From Candidatus Zixiibacteriota bacterium (GTDB lineage Bacteria > Zixibacteria > MSB-5A5 > GN15 > FEB-12), in contig CP070756.1 of the NCBI GenBank assembly GCA_020348905.1, positions 2,420,274 to 2,479,592 on the forward strand: DNA of 59,319 bases. The letters are read 5' to 3'. A model generated the notes under the pieces. The model searched no databases, had not been told where the DNA came from, and saw only the letters and a program-made list of their open reading frames with translations. Below, piece by piece: positions 8,224 through 18,416 of this stretch (the stretch's first letter is position 1; each line of letters begins with the position of its first letter). Made by a program: the position numbers and the translations under genes.

Positions 8224-8994
8224 TTACTGGTCATACCAGATGCTGACGTTATCCACCCCGATATCCCAGAGCTGGAACATGAAAAACATCTCCGGGTCTC
8301 CGAAGAAAAAGGTAATCTGGGAAACATCGTTTATAACGGTATTCCAGTCAGCGTCATCATCTCCGGTACTGTAACCGGACATAATCTTCCAACCTTTGGG
8401 AAGGGTCGTGCTGTGCGAAGGAATATCGATTTCGAATTCCTTGAACAGGCCGTTGGGCTGCGGAATCGGTTTGGTTCCGGTCCAGAAAGCCAGCACGTCA
8501 TCGCTGAAGTCATACGGTGTACCGTTCTCGTTGCGCAAAAGCAGGCTGAGCGGCCGTCCACCCGTGGCTGCCGCCCCGAAAATAGCGATATCGACCCCGA
8601 CTCTCGTCACGTTTCGGTCACGATAGTTGCCGGTGAAGATTGACGGTTCACCGATTGGCGTACGCAGTTGCGGAGCGTATGTGTCCAAGCAACCATGCTT
8701 ATCGCAGGTAGCGTGCAGAAAAGCTCCCGGATTGCCGTCTTTGGGCTCGATGACTTCAATGCGGTTATGGGGGTTACCGAAGAAGCTCCAGCCACCCACG
8801 TTCGAGTGCAGGTCGAAGGTTTCGACAAAGGTAGGTTCGCCGACTGCGCTCCCAACGACTGCCTGTGAAATGTCACCGGCTGCTGTGATCTCTGCAGGGC
8901 CCATTGAATTCTCGTCGGAGCAGCCCAAGCCCATCATCAGAATGGCCGATACGAGCAGCACCGCAAACGCTGTTGCGAAAAAAATTCTTCTCAA
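8224..8994 (-). CDS. Secreted lipoprotein, laminin-B-like fold (copy A)
   Basis: 256-residue lipoprotein. The signal peptide ends LMMGLGCSDEN, with lipobox cysteine 25. The mature part is beta-rich with FDLHSNVGGWSFFGN, SIFTGNYRDRNVTRVGVDI and a C-terminal FQLWDIGVDNVSIWYD, a layout like laminin-B / carbohydrate-binding jelly-roll modules of secreted proteins. I take TTG (8992-8994) as start because AAGGAGATTATA precedes it; the frame continues upstream to an ATG at 9102 but those residues do not resemble a signal sequence. The next gene upstream is a paralogue. Function unknown. Confidence 0.72.
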   Translation of the reverse strand: MRRIFFATAFAVLLVSAILMMGLGCSDENSMGPAEITAAGDISQAVVGSAVGEPTFVETFDLHSNVGGWSFFGNPHNRIEVIEPKDGNPGAFLHATCDKHGCLDTYAPQLRTPIGEPSIFTGNYRDRNVTRVGVDIAIFGAAATGGRPLSLLLRNENGTPYDFSDDVLAFWTGTKPIPQPNGLFKEFEIDIPSHSTTLPKGWKIMSGYSTGDDDADWNTVINDVSQITFFFGDPEMFFMFQLWDIGVDNVSIWYDQ

Positions 8995-9160
8995 TATAAT
9001 CTCCTTGTTGTTAGATGTTGTGAATGTGTACAAATGTTCTGCATTTGCTATTGTTCGTACCAACTGACGCTGCCACCCCGGACAATGTTCACCCGGGCGC
9101 ATATGCTGCCGGAGTGGTCGAATGTTAATAGGATAGCGCGGCTCAGACGTCCTACTTAAT

Positions 9161-9961
9161 CTACTCCCAGCTTATCCGCGGGTTGTCCAGACCCAGTTCC
9201 CAGGTATGAAAGATATACCAGAGATCCGGACGGCCATAAGAGAACTCAAGGTATGAGACATTCTCCATCAGCGCCCGCCAGGATTCGCCTGGCCGCTGAC
9301 CGTCGCCATCATCGTACCATTGAAAGAAAGTCCAGCCTTCGGGAAATTGGCGCCACTGCTTCGGGTCTTCCTGCGACGGGATGTCGAAATCAAAAGACTT
9401 CCAGCCGGGTTCGTTCAGAGTCACCGCACCGGCAACCGCTTTCATCGGTACATACTTCGACGGAATCGTGGCCTCTCCTTCAAAAAAGGCCCCCCAGTCG
9501 TCATCAAGATACCCGGCGGTACCGTTGTCATTCATCAGGACAACGCACAGACGGCGGGAGGTTGGGTCTCCATCATAATAGATGCTCCTCAGATCAATGC
9601 CCACCGAGGTGACGTTTCTCAACCGGTAATTTCCGGTGAACATCGATTCCATTCCAAGCCTTGTTCCGGGGTGAGGCAAAGCCGAAACAACGAGGGGATC
9701 GTGCAAATATCCGCCCGGATTTCCACCTTCGCGTTCAATAACGTACGGATGGTTCGTGTAGAAAGACCAGCCACCCTCATTGCGACGGGTATCGTAAGGC
9801 TCAACAAATGTGTTGACTTCATCGACGGCCTCGAGCGCTGCCTGACTCGATGTCGGCCCCGCCGGATCCATCGAGCCCTCGTGCGAACAACCCGGGCCAA
9901 TCAACAATACGGCCGCCATCACTAACAGGGCGATGGCTGCGATGCGCGATGTTTGATTCAT
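9161..9961 (-). CDS. Secreted lipoprotein, laminin-B-like fold (copy B)
   Basis: 266-residue lipoprotein paralogous to the gene at 8224-8994. The signal peptide ends VLLIGPGCSHEGSMDPA with the lipobox cysteine at 25. Shared blocks with copy A are NEGGWSFYTN, GNPGGYLHDP, SMFTGNYRLRNVTSVGIDL, GWKSFDFDIPS and the terminal TWELGLDNPRISW. Copy B has an insert around residues 165-215. The two genes are separated by about 166 bases. The fold suggests ligand or surface binding outside the cell, but no catalytic residues are apparent. Confidence 0.72.
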   Translation of the reverse strand: MNQTSRIAAIALLVMAAVLLIGPGCSHEGSMDPAGPTSSQAALEAVDEVNTFVEPYDTRRNEGGWSFYTNHPYVIEREGGNPGGYLHDPLVVSALPHPGTRLGMESMFTGNYRLRNVTSVGIDLRSIYYDGDPTSRRLCVVLMNDNGTAGYLDDDWGAFFEGEATIPSKYVPMKAVAGAVTLNEPGWKSFDFDIPSQEDPKQWRQFPEGWTFFQWYDDGDGQRPGESWRALMENVSYLEFSYGRPDLWYIFHTWELGLDNPRISWE

Positions 9962-10765: not shown

Positions 10766-11938
10766 TTACAACAGAGCTATTATCTCCGTTTGCATCGGCA
10801 CCGTCGTTACCTCGACTCCGTCATGACCGATCAGCACGTTAATCTCCGAGCGAAAACCAACCTCGTCCATGTAGATACCCGGTTCAATTGAGAACAGGTG
10901 TCCCTTTTGAAGTCTACGCGTATCCTCGGTTTCGAGATTGTCGATATTAGGACCGGATCCGTGAATATCGCTGCCTATCGAGTGTCCCGTCCGGGAAAGA
11001 AAATTCTCGCCGTAACCGGCGTCGACAATCACCTTGCGGCAGGCATCGTCCACCTCGGCGCCGTAGACGGGGCGGTTGTCGATATGTTCGCGAAGGTACG
11101 CCACCGCCGTGTCTCTGGCCTCGATAACGATTGAGAAAAGACTGCGATACTGGACCGGTATCTCATCGGCCGACCCGGCGTACGCCACCCAGGTGATATC
11201 CGCATATACACCGTCAGGGTGCTTCAATTTGCCCCACAAATCGATCAATATGAGGTCGCCTTTCTTAATGGTCGCCGACTTCCCTTCCGCTGGTTCATAA
11301 TGCGGGTCGCCGGCGTGGCCGTTGATGCCGACGATCGGTGTCTCGATTGTGTCCATATCGTATTCTTCAAACTGACCGAGGATAAACTGCGCCACCTCGT
11401 ACTCGGTCACTTTCTTCTTCCCCTGCAGTTTTTCTTCAATGAACTTGAAGGCGTTGTCTTTTATCTCAAGCACGTTATTGGCGGCGATGCGATGAGTCGC
11501 CATCTGTTCCGGCGTCAACCGCGCCAGGAAATTGGCCACCAGGTCGGCCGAACTGACTATCTCAACCTCGCAATCCTTCACCAGTTCAATGGTCCCGTAG
11601 TCGACCAGACCGATATAGGGAAGGCGCCCTTTCGAGGAGTATTCCATGGCGATGCGACTGTAACCCTCGAGCAGAGATTCCAGCTCCTGTTCCAGCTTGC
11701 GGTATCCCAGGCAGGGGATGATTTTGCCCGGCAGGCCCTCGAACTTGCTTTTTTCCAATGCGTTGACCAACCCGGTCGGTTCACCCATGGCCGGAATAAA
11801 GTAAAACGACCGCCGGGTAATCATCCCGGAGAGTTTGAGCATTTCCACCGCCACGTTGTTACGGGCGTGAAAATCAGCCATCAGCCAGCCATCGAGCTTA
11901 TGCTCGACTAAGTACTCTTGTATCTTTGCTATATCCAT
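10766..11938 (-). CDS. M24-family metallopeptidase (Xaa-Pro aminopeptidase type)
   Basis: 390-residue pita-bread-fold peptidase, probably removing N-terminal residues before proline. The C-terminal domain shows the metal ligands in order: Asp in LILIDLWG, Asp in GVYADITWVAY, His in SRTGHSIGSDIHG, Glu in FSIEPGIY and Glu in GFRSEINVLI. The N-terminal 150 residues form the creatinase-like domain. I prefer the ATG at 11936-11938, preceded by GAAAGGCC, over in-frame starts up to 11965. The Nudix gene follows at once. Confidence 0.87.
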   Translation of the reverse strand: MDIAKIQEYLVEHKLDGWLMADFHARNNVAVEMLKLSGMITRRSFYFIPAMGEPTGLVNALEKSKFEGLPGKIIPCLGYRKLEQELESLLEGYSRIAMEYSSKGRLPYIGLVDYGTIELVKDCEVEIVSSADLVANFLARLTPEQMATHRIAANNVLEIKDNAFKFIEEKLQGKKKVTEYEVAQFILGQFEEYDMDTIETPIVGINGHAGDPHYEPAEGKSATIKKGDLILIDLWGKLKHPDGVYADITWVAYAGSADEIPVQYRSLFSIVIEARDTAVAYLREHIDNRPVYGAEVDDACRKVIVDAGYGENFLSRTGHSIGSDIHGSGPNIDNLETEDTRRLQKGHLFSIEPGIYMDEVGFRSEINVLIGHDGVEVTTVPMQTEIIALL

Positions 11939-12081
11939 ATTGGCCTTTCGGTTTCGCATATTCAACTGCTACCACCAAGATAATTAATCCCAGCCGCAGT
12001 GTCACACGCTAATTATTTTGGAAGAAACTTTCCACAATTCTGTATAGTAATGTACATTCAACTCAGGACGGGAGGATTTGA

Positions 12082-13680
12082 GTGAGAAAGTACCTGCCAC
12101 TTTTAGCCTGTGTGCTCGGATTGATTCTCTTGTTTGCCCATGCGGCCATGGCCAGCGAAATCTTTCCAACGCTGATTATCCGTTCGGAGTTTCCAGAAAA
12201 GCCCGCCCGAGGTGGGCAAGTAACGATGCTGCTTTATGTTTCCCCAGAACATGAAACAGAACAAGAGCCTGGACCAAAACAGCTTAACGTTTCCGCGAAG
12301 TGCGGCTTGAAAGTCATGGGATACGAGGCTCTGGGAGAAAGCGAAACCGACAATGACGAACTTTCGTTTGCCGTAAAAATGTGGATACCGGACAGGGATA
12401 CTTCAATGGTTGTGGTGTCAATCCACGACCGGCGAGGGCTCGGCATGATCTGCCGCACGTTCATAACCATCGGCGACACCCTTGAGATATATGAGATCGG
12501 GCAGCCGGCAATGCGCAAGATAGAATCCGAACGCAGGCAGGAACTTTTCGATAGCACTGTGAAAGAGGCCACAGACACCTTCTCCGACAGCCGATCCGGA
12601 GGGAAGGTCGTGGCCAATGTTAACTATGTTTCCAAAGATGCTAACACCGCCCGGCTCGAACAATGCACCCAACTCAGGGCACCGGGCATATCAAACGAAG
12701 TCCACATCACTTTGGCACCGTTCAACGGAGCTCGGGTACAAGGCGACACTAGCTGGACTCAGTACTACCCTCCAGGGACATACCAGGAACTTGCCTTCAG
12801 GCACGCCGAACACACCCGCTGGTACGATGTTGCTTTTCCTTCCAACGACACCAGCGGCCTCGTTATGACCTTTGTGTACGGCCCCTTCGAGCAAAAGACA
12901 AGAATAACTTTCGCTACAACCGGCGACACAACCGAACTATGGCTCGGCAGGCCTGAGGTACAAATGCCGATGTACCGGTCACCACGTACCGACGCCTCAC
13001 TGGTTGAGAAATACCCTTACTTCTTCGGCGACCAGTTCCGGACCCGGGGATACAAGATAAAACTCGACTCCGCAACTATTCACCAACACCGACTGGAAAC
13101 TCAGAAGAGAAAGATGTTTGAACTAATCTCTGAACTGGAGCAGCACGCCTGCACTACCGGGTGCGAAATCGTGGTGACCGGTAATCAAATCTGGATTCGC
13201 GATCAAGGTCAGTCTATTTTCCATTCTGTGAAAGAATCCGAGCAGTCTGAATGTAAAGCTACTGTAGTCTTGGACCTCCCCAAGCCATCAGACTACGATT
13301 TCGCCAGCAAGCTCGTGCCTCACCTTGTACGGGCGGAACAAACTGGGAGTTACCGGGCAACCGTACCGGCTGACATCATCTGGAAACTCATCGATCATGG
13401 AATAATTGTGTTCGGTCGCACAGAGTCGTCGCCGCCCACCGAACCCGGCGCGGTCGAAGGCCCCAGGCGAGAGCGTATAGTTGTCCGGATGGATCCAGGG
13501 CCAGTGCATGAATACCTTGAGCGCATGCGATCAATAATGCGACCGATGGAACGCGAAGGCTTCTACCACCTCCGGGTGCCTGCCGGCATGCTCCCAAAGC
13601 TGGACAAGCTCGGCATCCCGTACGCCATCTACCCGGAATATCCCGACAGCACCGAACCCAAATCAGAGGGAGATAATTAG
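12082..13680 (+). CDS. Secreted repeat protein of unknown function, paralogue 1
   Basis: 532-residue exported protein I do not recognise. A signal peptide (1-24, ending AAMASE) is followed by two related modules, about 30-145 and 175-300, each closing with a TxGDTxE(L/I) block then a proline-rich PxxxMx turn (GDTLEIYEIGQPAM; GDTTELWLGRPEVQMPMY). A charged helical linker (330-355) leads to two further related C-terminal units, about 394-447 and 464-520, each with VVLD/VVRMD, an acidic-aromatic helix, then a LPxLDKLGI-type end. The start is GTG at 12082 behind GGGAGGA. The next gene begins one base after its TAG. Confidence 0.7.
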   Translation: MRKYLPLLACVLGLILLFAHAAMASEIFPTLIIRSEFPEKPARGGQVTMLLYVSPEHETEQEPGPKQLNVSAKCGLKVMGYEALGESETDNDELSFAVKMWIPDRDTSMVVVSIHDRRGLGMICRTFITIGDTLEIYEIGQPAMRKIESERRQELFDSTVKEATDTFSDSRSGGKVVANVNYVSKDANTARLEQCTQLRAPGISNEVHITLAPFNGARVQGDTSWTQYYPPGTYQELAFRHAEHTRWYDVAFPSNDTSGLVMTFVYGPFEQKTRITFATTGDTTELWLGRPEVQMPMYRSPRTDASLVEKYPYFFGDQFRTRGYKIKLDSATIHQHRLETQKRKMFELISELEQHACTTGCEIVVTGNQIWIRDQGQSIFHSVKESEQSECKATVVLDLPKPSDYDFASKLVPHLVRAEQTGSYRATVPADIIWKLIDHGIIVFGRTESSPPTEPGAVEGPRRERIVVRMDPGPVHEYLERMRSIMRPMEREGFYHLRVPAGMLPKLDKLGIPYAIYPEYPDSTEPKSEGDN

Positions 13681-15303
13681 ATGAAAAGTTACCCAAGTAC
13701 CTTTGGTATTCGTCTGTGTTTAGCAACACTGTGCATTTGTGCCTTCTGGATTACTCCAATTATGGCAACAACGAAGTCCCGATTTGTATCCGATAAAAAA
13801 GTCGCTGTTGATTATAAATTTTCAGACCGGGATACCGCCACCGGCAATGTCCGGATTGACATCAACATTCGCTCCGAGCAACCCCTGGGAAACACGCGTA
13901 TTCACATTACACCCTGGTATGGGGTGATGGTCAGTGGCGATACGTTGTGGCAGGAAAACCTGACCGCAAACAACGAATTTACCCTTACTCGAAATCTTTT
14001 CGTCCCGCCCAACGACACCTCGGGCGTGGGCATTACGATTGAAAACAACAGGGTCTGGGGCAGTTTTGCGCTGCTGAATTTCTTTGTCACGACCGCTGAT
14101 ACGCTCGAGATCTTTGATGACCCCCCCTGGCAGATAATGTATCAATATCACCCCGGCGAATTGAAGCGATCAAAGTATGGTCCTTTTGAACTTCTTGTGG
14201 CCCGCAAGCCCCCAACGGAACAAGTAAGTCGTATCACCCTGCAGTTTGCGGTTTGGACGAATCCCGACCGCCTCCTCGACGTCTGGTCCGAGCACGGCCC
14301 CTGGGGTAAGGTTCACACGACTTTCGTGCCGGGCAACGGTATGATTGCCCTCGGCAATACGGCCTGGATTGAACGGCACCCGAACAGCGGGCTCACGCTC
14401 AAAGAGATAGAACTTGACCTTGAGCGTGGTGACACCTGTCAGGCTACATTCATTACCCGTTTTCGAGACTCAACCGCCTCGATTGATCTGTTCTTTGTTA
14501 ACACCTGCGATAGTATCTCCGCCTGGGCCGGACACCCGGCAGCCGATGGCCAGCCGATCATGTATAACCCGCCTGAATGGAAATACCGAACTACAAACCC
14601 GGCGGATTGGAGAGACTGGCTGGAAGACACCGTGTTCATTAGGCGAAAGCAGGAAAGACTCGAGGCCCGCTGGCAGTTTAACATGGAACAGATGGCAAAG
14701 GATGGCGAAACTCTCTTTTCAGGAAATCTGCAGCACCGCGAGGTCGAGGGCCGGTTCTGGCAGCGAAAAGGCGGCGAATACGAATTCACTTCCGTGCCAT
14801 GGCAGCCTACTGGGGCCGTCGACTCGGCTGCGCAAAATGATCCGATGCTGTACCCGCTTGTACTGGATATAAGAGACCGGGGGGAACACGAATTTATTGA
14901 AAGCTTTGTTCCTTTTCTTACTTCGGCAGGGTGGCACGAAGTGTATTACGCCTCCATGCCAATGGATGCCGTGGCCCTCTGTTTGGAGCGACGCATAAGA
15001 GTAATGGCTGCCCCGCAACACTACCCTGAGCTTAGGACGGTCGTCGACCTATACCGGCCTCTGCGCAATCGGCTGATGCCCCTGACTGTAACCGATGAAG
15101 AAAAACGGGTGCGCTCTATCCACCTGACCTTTGACCTGAGCAATGCCGATGCTTATGATTTTGTAAGCTGCATTTGCGATGATTTGGAGAGCCTCGATCG
15201 GGAAGGCTATTATCACGGCCTGGTCCCCTGGTTGAACTTAATCGACCTGCGCCAGCGCCAGATAAACATCGCTCTTTACCCGAATTATCCTTCTGGTCGG
15301 TAG
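13681..15303 (+). CDS. Secreted repeat protein of unknown function, paralogue 2
   Basis: 540-residue exported protein with the same plan as its upstream neighbour: signal peptide (1-29), two N-terminal modules (about 40-150 and 180-298) ending TTADTLEIFDDPPWQIMY and NTCDSISAWAG...QPIMY, a helical linker (315-345), and two C-terminal units (393-447 ending VMAAPQHYP; 478-536 ending IALYPNYP). The ATG follows the neighbour's TAG directly, so the pair is translationally coupled and probably acts together. Its own stop TAG lies inside a GTAGGGC hairpin. No enzyme motif was seen. Confidence 0.7.
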   Translation: MKSYPSTFGIRLCLATLCICAFWITPIMATTKSRFVSDKKVAVDYKFSDRDTATGNVRIDINIRSEQPLGNTRIHITPWYGVMVSGDTLWQENLTANNEFTLTRNLFVPPNDTSGVGITIENNRVWGSFALLNFFVTTADTLEIFDDPPWQIMYQYHPGELKRSKYGPFELLVARKPPTEQVSRITLQFAVWTNPDRLLDVWSEHGPWGKVHTTFVPGNGMIALGNTAWIERHPNSGLTLKEIELDLERGDTCQATFITRFRDSTASIDLFFVNTCDSISAWAGHPAADGQPIMYNPPEWKYRTTNPADWRDWLEDTVFIRRKQERLEARWQFNMEQMAKDGETLFSGNLQHREVEGRFWQRKGGEYEFTSVPWQPTGAVDSAAQNDPMLYPLVLDIRDRGEHEFIESFVPFLTSAGWHEVYYASMPMDAVALCLERRIRVMAAPQHYPELRTVVDLYRPLRNRLMPLTVTDEEKRVRSIHLTFDLSNADAYDFVSCICDDLESLDREGYYHGLVPWLNLIDLRQRQINIALYPNYPSGR

Positions 15304-15327
15304 GGCAGGGCCGTCTTCGAACCTGCC
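15300..15327 (+). repeat. GTAGGGC-type palindrome over a stop codon
   Basis: GTAG then GGCAGGGCCG and CGAACCTGCC, matching the copy after lepB (shared CCGTCTTCGAAC core). The TAG at 15301-15303 is also the stop codon of the preceding gene. Confidence 0.7.
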
Positions 15328-15596
15328 TGACAACGCTTTGTGCCCGTTGATTATTCCGGTTCAACGGGCAACCCCAATTTCCCTACAAACCCGCCCCTGC
15401 TTGTCATGGCCACCCCATTTTTGATACAGGAAAGTCGTTTTCACCAAAAAAGTTATGACGCCAAAACAAAAAAATAAGCAAACGAACCCAGATCGAGGTA
15501 AACTCCATGACATACATAAAGTTACATCAACAAAACACCCGGCGGGTGCAATCCGGCTTGATTAGGCCTAACCGATATGCTAACTTAACCTTTCGT
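15304..15596 (+). other. Intergenic region with a perfect inverted repeat
   Basis: 293 bases with no supported gene. Besides the repeat at its left edge it holds TGCCCGTTGA (15341-15350) and its exact complement TCAACGGGCA (15361-15370) around a ten-base loop, possibly a transcription stop although no T-run follows. The right half is A-rich and may carry the promoter of the AAA ATPase. Confidence 0.55.
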
Positions 15597-16202: not shown

Positions 16203-18416
16203 GTGAGGACCTTTAGAATCTTTCTAACTGTGATCTTATGCCTGACTTTCGCCAGTGTTGCCGCTGATTCGGAATTTATGGAGAAATTCAAATCCGACTA
16301 CGGCACACTGGATTTGGACCTTCTAAACAACCTCGGCGAAATCGCGACGGTAGAAAATTTCGTCTACCAGAAAGATATCGCCACCTTTACCTTCGAGGAG
16401 GGGAAAATCCACCTGCTTCGCTATGTCGATGACCGCCCGACCACGGCTATCTTCACCGGCAAAGGCCGGGCTGAAATCAGTGTCCCGTCGCACCTTGAAC
16501 GCATGTCGCTGCTGGCCGTCACAAAAGACAGTGTCGTCAGTCAAGAGTTCGAGGTTTGCCTGATGCGAATAGCCGATGATTTCGACCTGAAGCTAAAGGA
16601 ACAGTTCCCGGTCGAAGAGAAAGAACTCAAGTGGAGTGACTTCACCAAGATGAAGCAGGCCCAGGGAGAGGTCTATTTCAGGCCGGTCATTCAGCACCGT
16701 TACGACAACTACTTCCAGCTTCTGCGCTCCCTTTACGAACGCGGACCCGACGGCTTCTTCTGGATAGACTTCAACCGGTACAACTTCTGTTTCGATCCCA
16801 ACCGACCCGAACAGGTGGTCGTATCGTACGAGTTTGAACCGGCCGACAAACTGGCCACCGACGCTGTCTGTTTGCCGCGCGCCGAACTTCGCCCGGCTGC
16901 CGACATCGAGCTTTCAGATCTAAGCTACCCGACCACCGCTGTCGATAAGCAGGCCCGGATTGAAATGGGAGGGATAGACGGTACCAAGATCGAAGGCGCC
17001 GAAGCCCGGATGAGAGTTGTCGTCAATTCCGACAGTCTTAAGTACGTCTCGACCTTTCTGCATTTCAATCTGAAGGAGGATTCAATATATTTCGACGGTC
17101 AACCGGTGGACTACCATCGTCGCAAGGATTTCAACTTCATCGGGATCATTCTTCCGAGGTATTATTACCGGGGGGACACCCTTACTTTCACATACTGGTC
17201 TAAAGGGAAAGAATACGGCTACGCCCTGCCATACGTTGAAGATCCCACCCCCTCGCCGCACTCCTTTACCTTTATTACACCGAAGGGCTTCAACTACCTG
17301 ATGCCCGGGATGGGTGAGGTAACCGAACTGAACGGCAAACAACAGTTCCAGGTGATACCCCAGCAGTCGTACGATAAGTTTTACTTCCAGGCTTACGCCT
17401 CCGGGCACGATACCCTGAATTACGTTTCCGATATCGGGATTACCGTCAACTTCCTCAAGGCGAAGCATATCACCAAGCGGATGGACTGTTTCGTCCCCGA
17501 CGCGATCTATGAAAACACCATCATGGATGCCTTCAACTACATGAGCGCCCGGGTCGGCCCGCCGGCCGGGACTTTCGAGATTTATGTTTACCCCGAAAAC
17601 TACTACACCATGCCCGGCCTGATCGAGGTACCGAAGATACTGTGTTACGACGATGGCGGCCTTCCGGCTTTCGGCGGTTTCAACCTGTTTGCCGGTTACT
17701 CGACCGCCAAGCAATGGTTCGGCAATCAGCTCAAGCCAAAGTCCGAACGTGAATTCTGGCTGCGCGACGCCGCCTCGGAGTATCTCAACCTGCTGTTCAT
17801 TCAAAACAGCGTCCCCGGCGGCGCCTATTACACCAACCTGCTCAACCGGCGCGACTCGCTCTACACTTTCTTTAACCACAGCCGCGATCGCCCCCTCGCC
17901 ACCGGTTTGCGCACCGGAAGCGTCGTACGCTGCAACAAAGGCGTATGGCTGTTCCATATGCTGCGGTATCTGATGTTCGACATTGAACGGCAGAGCGAAG
18001 ACAAATTCTTCCGCTTCTTCTACGAGCTGTGTATGACCTGCAATAACACCAGGTATACCAACCAGGCCTTGATCGACCTCGCCGAGAAACATTACGGCGG
18101 CCCGCTCGATTGGTTCTTCAAACAGTGGCTCTGCGGTATCGGCTACCCGGAATACGACGTCGAATACACGATTGAGCAAAAGGACGACGGCTACTTCATA
18201 AGCGGCACGGTCAAATCGAAAAACGTTACCGATCAATTCCAGATGCCGGTCATGATGAGAGTCCAGGACAAAAGCGGTGAGTCCCAGTTTCTCCGCGAAA
18301 ACATCGAGGGCACCCTGGACACCTTCGAGCTGGGGCCTTTCGCCTCTGAACCGGAAGAACTGGTTTTCAACGAGCTTTACTCGGTGCTGTCGAAGGACAA
18401 GGTAAGCAAAAAATAA
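16203..18416 (+). CDS. Secreted M1-peptidase-like protein lacking the zinc site
   Basis: 737-residue exported protein with signal peptide 1-21. Residues from about 400 resemble M1 aminopeptidases: YSTAKQWFGNQL (499-510) aligns with the family's HELAHQWFGN, and FWLRDAASEYLNLLF (518-532) with LWLNEGFAxY. The zinc-binding HExxH is therefore Y-S-T-A-K, and the third ligand, glutamate 18 residues on, is Asp522. All three ligands and the catalytic glutamate are changed, so peptidase activity is not expected. The N-terminal 400 residues are beta-rich. Start is GTG at 16203 behind AGGGAGG. A terminator follows. It may be a structural or binding protein. Confidence 0.75.
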   Translation: MRTFRIFLTVILCLTFASVAADSEFMEKFKSDYGTLDLDLLNNLGEIATVENFVYQKDIATFTFEEGKIHLLRYVDDRPTTAIFTGKGRAEISVPSHLERMSLLAVTKDSVVSQEFEVCLMRIADDFDLKLKEQFPVEEKELKWSDFTKMKQAQGEVYFRPVIQHRYDNYFQLLRSLYERGPDGFFWIDFNRYNFCFDPNRPEQVVVSYEFEPADKLATDAVCLPRAELRPAADIELSDLSYPTTAVDKQARIEMGGIDGTKIEGAEARMRVVVNSDSLKYVSTFLHFNLKEDSIYFDGQPVDYHRRKDFNFIGIILPRYYYRGDTLTFTYWSKGKEYGYALPYVEDPTPSPHSFTFITPKGFNYLMPGMGEVTELNGKQQFQVIPQQSYDKFYFQAYASGHDTLNYVSDIGITVNFLKAKHITKRMDCFVPDAIYENTIMDAFNYMSARVGPPAGTFEIYVYPENYYTMPGLIEVPKILCYDDGGLPAFGGFNLFAGYSTAKQWFGNQLKPKSEREFWLRDAASEYLNLLFIQNSVPGGAYYTNLLNRRDSLYTFFNHSRDRPLATGLRTGSVVRCNKGVWLFHMLRYLMFDIERQSEDKFFRFFYELCMTCNNTRYTNQALIDLAEKHYGGPLDWFFKQWLCGIGYPEYDVEYTIEQKDDGYFISGTVKSKNVTDQFQMPVMMRVQDKSGESQFLRENIEGTLDTFELGPFASEPEELVFNELYSVLSKDKVSKK

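Follow-up and report, generated by a model that had tools for sequence, protein, structure and literature searches.

The window analysed here, a stretch of 59,319 nucleotides from a Candidatus Zixiibacteriota genome, carries two adjacent genes, ORF1 and ORF2, whose predicted products share one modular plan (Table 1). Both reading frames are intact and abut directly at a TAG|ATG junction, as an earlier note on this DNA had described, and a GA-rich stretch resembling a ribosome-binding site precedes each of them at the expected spacing. Each protein begins with an apparent hydrophobic Sec-type signal peptide, clear to the eye, which agrees with the note's view of the products as secreted.

Table 1. 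Genes, start signals and modules of the ORF1-ORF2 pair (window coordinates)
Feature	Position	Strand	Support or remark
Shine-Dalgarno-like GGGAGG preceding ORF1	about 12070..12075	+	read directly from sequence
ORF1, predicted secreted protein, plan N1-N2-L-C1-C2	12082..13680	+	intact; GTG start; 532 aa
ORF1 N1, predicted Ig-like beta module	12154..12519	+	profile A2 E 4.9e-9; N profile
ORF1 N2	12592..12981	+	within A2 match E 1.8e-24; N profile
ORF1 linker L, degenerate	12982..13245	+	inside continuous A2 match; separate L profile gives no match
ORF1 C1	13246..13437	+	profile matches, part of A2 N2-L-C1 match
ORF1 C2	13474..13659	+	A2 E 6.2e-5; C profile
Shine-Dalgarno-like GAGGGAGA, within the end of ORF1, preceding ORF2	about 13666..13673	+	read directly from sequence
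ORF2, predicted secreted protein, plan N1-N2-L-C1-C2	13681..15303	+	intact; 540 aa
ORF2 N1, Ig-like sandwich in model	13771..14136	+	A2 E 7.2e-16; pLDDT 86.1; Foldseek and VIA-align
ORF2 N2, most diverged N module	14209..14580	+	within A2 match E 3.2e-16; N profile 5e-17
ORF2 linker motif L (EGRFWQRKGGEYEF)	14698..14820	+	L profile 7e-6
ORF2 C1	14839..15036	+	phmmer match to relative 1.7e-7; profile A3 (built including ORF2 C1)
ORF2 C2, beta-alpha-beta-alpha-beta in model	15103..15300	+	A2 E 7.1e-12; pLDDT 88.4; fold searches

The equal plan of the two proteins, which had first been proposed from the letters of the window, is borne out by profile A2, an alignment of 11 relatives from other genomes with no window sequence included. 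In both proteins this profile recovers the order N1-N2-L-C1-C2 as a continuous N2-L-C1 match and separate matches to N1 and C2 (E 1.8e-24 to 6e-5), and pairwise module scores above chance agree with it. The plan is fainter at two points: ORF2 C1 lies within the A2 match but gives no separate match to the iterated C profile, and the L regions of the two proteins score weakly against each other (z 0.7, 500 shuffles). The terminal motifs that the note ascribed to both beta modules stood only in part. The TxDTLEI block is exact in both N1 modules (TIGDTLEI and TTADTLEI) but is absent as such from the N2 modules (TTGDTTEL and TCDSISA), and the proline-Met-Tyr turn is present after N2 but does not follow both modules.

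Profile matching shows ORF1 and ORF2 to belong to a family of predicted secreted proteins with the order N module, L motif and C unit. Matches to A2 at E<=1e-6 occur in 39 of 132 genomes of the phylum, all of them from the taxonomic order of the window's genome or closer; the N and C profiles, both of which include window modules, match in 37 and 34 of the 132 genomes, respectively. The relatives are mostly encoded by single genes or constitute the N-terminal section of a metallopeptidase; those that stand alone have an N-L-C or N-C plan and a length of roughly 260-480 residues. At one locus (L129:3103-4809:+) an N module is joined to a part that looks beta-propeller-like by eye, and N is therefore not confined to peptidase fusions. 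This locus and L130, which has an assembly gap, carry N modules without a C unit or peptidase in the same ORF.

No known family had been recognized in the two proteins, and profile searches of the modules agree: Pfam, NCBIfam, PHROGs and PDB sequences name no family for N, L or C. Among 43 N modules, Pfam detected neither CARDB nor FnIII at E<=0.1, and one family member matched Cep192_D3 at 0.013. Likewise, none of 37 C units matched a protease pro-domain family (Inhibitor I9, subtilisin or carboxypeptidase type) in Pfam at E<=0.1, and the C units matched no pro-domain family in PDB sequence searches. Two candidates were discarded, namely Fn3_Dep-1_4th on whole ORF1 (E 0.11), which is below the cut-off, lies outside the N modules and comes from a single protein, and DUF4245 (E 0.08), also below the cut-off and from a single protein. 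Searches of viral contigs gave no match to the family, and a search of open papers returned nothing on it in Zixibacteria or Zixiibacteriota.

The chromosomal site of the pair (window 11966-15506, between M24 and AAA_28 genes) is variable and flanked by conserved blocks; it holds the family pair here and other genes in genomes G002 and G003. An N-module search found no match in G002 and only one in G003, located elsewhere (E 0.015). In G001 the genes that precede the pair (two secreted paralogues, Nudix and M24) are kept and are followed by a gene that by eye resembles VCBS repeats, and then by a family ORF that runs into an assembly gap. We considered whether the pair is functionally linked to the genes that follow it, AAA_28 and M1-like, and dropped the idea, since in G002 and G001 these two retain their order with no pair adjacent. 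The M1-like gene (window 16203-18416) encodes a secreted protein of 737 aa with a sub-threshold Peptidase_M1 match (E 0.13) and has a conserved position behind AAA_28 in the genus. On the other side, at window 8224-9961 on the minus strand, are two paralogous secreted ORFs that look lipoprotein-like by eye and have relatives beside Nudix and M24 in G001, G002 and G003.

A second copy of the pair, 97.8% identical, is found at G000 491270-495242. It lies within a 4,014-base piece bounded by two 100-N gaps (G000:C1:491229-495242, equivalent to window 11536-15549), whose M24 flank shows 96 differing positions between 11536 and 11876, after which the sequence is abruptly identical. Given these gaps and this abrupt change we set the copy aside as proof of two loci; it may be an assembly chimera or a strain variant. 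Between the copies there are seven differences in ORF1 and none in ORF2. Six of the seven are synonymous, where a fraction of 0.232 would be expected of random changes (P 0.0009), a pattern that hints at purifying selection.

Comparisons of individual modules, judged against 500 shuffles, bear on how the pair arose. Modules in the same position of ORF1 and ORF2 resemble each other strongly (N1/N1 z 17.2, N2/N2 z 7.9, C1/C1 z 8.8, C2/C2 z 13.0), and the module pairs within one protein score lower (z 4.1-4.7). Two cross pairs also exceed chance, ORF1 N2 with ORF2 N1 (z 16.4, about as high as N1/N1) and ORF1 C1 with ORF2 C2 (z 6.9); the other two, ORF1 N1 with ORF2 N2 (z -0.1) and ORF1 C2 with ORF2 C1 (z -0.2), are at chance level, and four N-versus-C control comparisons gave z values of -1.1 to -0.1. 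A tree built from 57 N modules unites the four window modules (85/88) and places N1 with N1 (96/87) and N2 weakly with N2 (82/0), with a warning from the tool that the window modules are long branches that may meet falsely. From the module scores and this tree, the modules were most likely doubled first and the gene afterwards, and the two genes are paralogues that most probably go back to tandem duplication of an ancestor that was already doubled. Module doubling recurs in the family: L111:9244-11025:+ encodes an N-L-N-L-C protein, and L148 has two C units behind one N module, with N and C in two frames.

The note had also concluded from the equal plan and tight coupling that the two proteins form a complex, and had proposed looking for the pair in other genomes. 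Tandem family genes are present in six other genomes (loci L044, L055, L096, L101, L117 and L150), and most relatives occur singly or joined to a metallopeptidase. Five of these loci were placed in the N-module tree, from which L150 was left out, and the tandem copies are sisters in four (L055, L096, L101 and L117; not in L044). These four pairs therefore arose separately and do not represent conserved partner classes, and the coupling of the genes is thus no evidence of an obligate complex. With the pair itself made up of paralogues, the argument for a complex is left unsupported. The abutting genes and equal plan are what an obligate heterodimer of two specialized partners would offer in its favour; with other tandem pairs mostly lineage-specific sisters and not two partner classes, and with many relatives encoded by single genes, we consider such a heterodimer quite unlikely.

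A different association emerges from the relatives. In ten of their ORFs, N, L or C parts are fused to a secreted peptidase domain that has an HExxH motif (PEP), always with the family parts N-terminal; seven have the architecture N-L-C-MAM-PEP, and one each is N-C-PEP, L-C-MAM-PEP and N-PEP. A Pfam scan of four fusion proteins revealed CARDB in all four (one below the cut-off) and Dockerin_1 in two (one below the cut-off). Pfam has no family for the HExxH...E peptidase domain itself, which among PDB sequences gave only a marginal match (E 0.012) to 7qp3, an extracellular metalloproteinase that we take to be of the fungalysin type. An alignment of the peptidase domain (A10; L046:3389-4291:- plus eight others) served as a profile and matched in 29 of the 132 phylum genomes at E<=1e-8. 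A strong peptidase match (E<=1e-28) occurs in 21 genomes, of which, counted by hand, 19 also contain the N-L-C family; such a match is absent from 20 of the 39 N-L-C genomes, including that of the window. The domain is absent from both ORF1 and ORF2, and the window's own genome, which is 80.65% complete, has no A10 match at E<=1.

Ten additional loci have N/C and peptidase parts in separate ORFs of one strand, with the peptidase part second. Interruptions downstream of the C unit are common, occurring in L094 and L096 and in L044, L051, L055, L097, L103, L115, L122 and L123, and could reflect decay, assembly errors or something else; at the last eight, reading of the junctions located stops or frame changes that separate the N/C from the peptidase part. 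Programmed recoding at these sites was considered and set aside; four stops that were read comprise three TAA and one TAG, and the frame changes are scattered. Breaks of this kind in many relatives would suit a view of the pair as a functionless residue of a protease gene whose catalytic part has been lost. We judge this very unlikely for two intact ORFs of more than 530 codons each, with signal peptides and start-site signals, in which nearly all ORF1 differences between copies are synonymous and the doubling of N and C amounts to elaboration rather than decay.

Stand-alone family genes also occur next to peptidase genes. In L044 (genome G070) and L055 (G063) such a gene directly precedes a family gene whose peptidase part is in another frame, and in L150 (G019) one directly precedes a peptidase gene whose front region looks the same by eye.

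Structures were predicted with AlphaFold for single modules from shallow alignments of five rows each, with confident results. The model of ORF2 N1 (pTM 0.76; rows from the four window modules and L093) is nearly all beta, and the N module is modelled as an Ig-like beta sandwich; VIA-align returned many Ig-like chains with Z up to 10.0, among which no one family stands out. The model of ORF2 C2 (pTM 0.74) has an arrangement that looks ferredoxin-like. With Foldseek, neither model had a match at E<=0.001, and the top match for C2, procarboxypeptidase A (1jqg), was not significant (E 0.27). In the VIA-align results for C2, 16 of 50 rows are protease pro-forms or pro-domains by their titles (Z 4.4-5.2; best Z overall 5.5), with UreE, EF-G and HflX-type rows scoring the same or slightly higher. 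Because these scores are low and tied with those of UreE and EF-G, a common fold is all they show; the predicted fold of the C unit is compatible with a protease pro-domain without demonstrating one.

The fusion to the front of peptidases, the modelled C-unit fold and the stand-alone copies before peptidase genes together suggest a pro-region that is able to stand free. Our tentative interpretation, held with less than even confidence, is that ORF1 and ORF2 are stand-alone, doubled, pro-region-like secreted proteins that may bind or inhibit a secreted protease. On this view the N-L-C region originated as a pro-region, that of the family metallopeptidase; its C unit would clamp in the manner of a pro-domain, and its N modules would be spacers or binding domains. 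Copies that became free of the peptidase, ORF1 and ORF2 among them, would act outside the cell in trans, where they would most likely bind a secreted protease and restrain or chaperone it, like free propeptide-like proteins, and the two would not need to work as a complex. This inhibitor or chaperone role is an inference: the window's genome gave no match to the family peptidase, and a strong one is missing from 20 of the 39 family genomes. The tandem neighbours could simply be partial duplications, which would count against this interpretation. Its fullest form, in which an uncatalogued pro-region from a new family of secreted metallopeptidases was released and its modules and then its genes were doubled, providing Zixiibacteriota with secreted proteins that regulate proteolysis outside the cell in trans, is doubtful and on balance improbable.

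The main rival reading takes the two products for extracellular matrix or adhesive proteins, whose tandem Ig-like modules bind a polymer or surface and whose C units oligomerize; proteases of the phylum would simply employ this front region for targeting or substrate binding. It draws on the generic Ig-like sandwich predicted for N, on the presence of RbmA, a biofilm matrix protein with two FnIII domains, among the VIA-align rows (Z 8.9-9.0, rmsd about 3, 103-104 aligned), on the N modules of L129 and L130, and on the missing family peptidase in the pair's genome. However, adaptin ears, complement and transglutaminase domains reach about the same Z, and the likeness to RbmA is therefore only one of fold; there is also no sign of anchoring or polymer binding. 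We regard the matrix or adhesive role as possible, if rather unlikely.

The pair offers a way into a secreted family without an entry in Pfam, NCBIfam, PHROGs or the PDB, linked in relatives to a peptidase domain that Pfam does not cover either. Should free copies hold such proteases in check, this would be an example from bacteria of pro-regions that have become independent regulators; if not, the family still provides usable annotation for proteins of an uncultured phylum that no library names.

Among known systems, the N-terminal region of the HExxH metallopeptidases of Zixiibacteriota (for example L046, L047 and L050) shares with the pair the N-L-C modules, their order and a predicted signal peptide in front, whereas each protein of the pair has two copies of N and of C and lacks the MAM-CARDB-peptidase-dockerin part, and the two genes abut. 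RbmA likewise places a tandem of two Ig-like domains behind a signal peptide, and its fold is similar to that predicted for the N modules; the likeness is one of fold, and RbmA is not known to have C units. The C unit as modelled may share the alpha/beta open-sandwich fold of the activation domain of procarboxypeptidase A/B and the subtilisin propeptide (I9), and the family region of relatives lies N-terminal to the peptidase, as protease pro-domains do. Unlike those ferredoxin-like pro-domains, the C units have no sequence match to them, score low in structural comparison, accompany another type of peptidase and, in the pair, are stand-alone and in tandem. POIA1 and YIB2, which resemble propeptides, provide what may be a functional analogy only, that of a free pro-domain-like protein acting in trans. 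Both are fungal protease inhibitors, and how potent they are against a subtilisin depends on their C-terminal residues (PMC10580911). Neither fold of the pair is unusual; the domain family has no catalogue entry, and its doubled, stand-alone version in tandem genes is a novel one.
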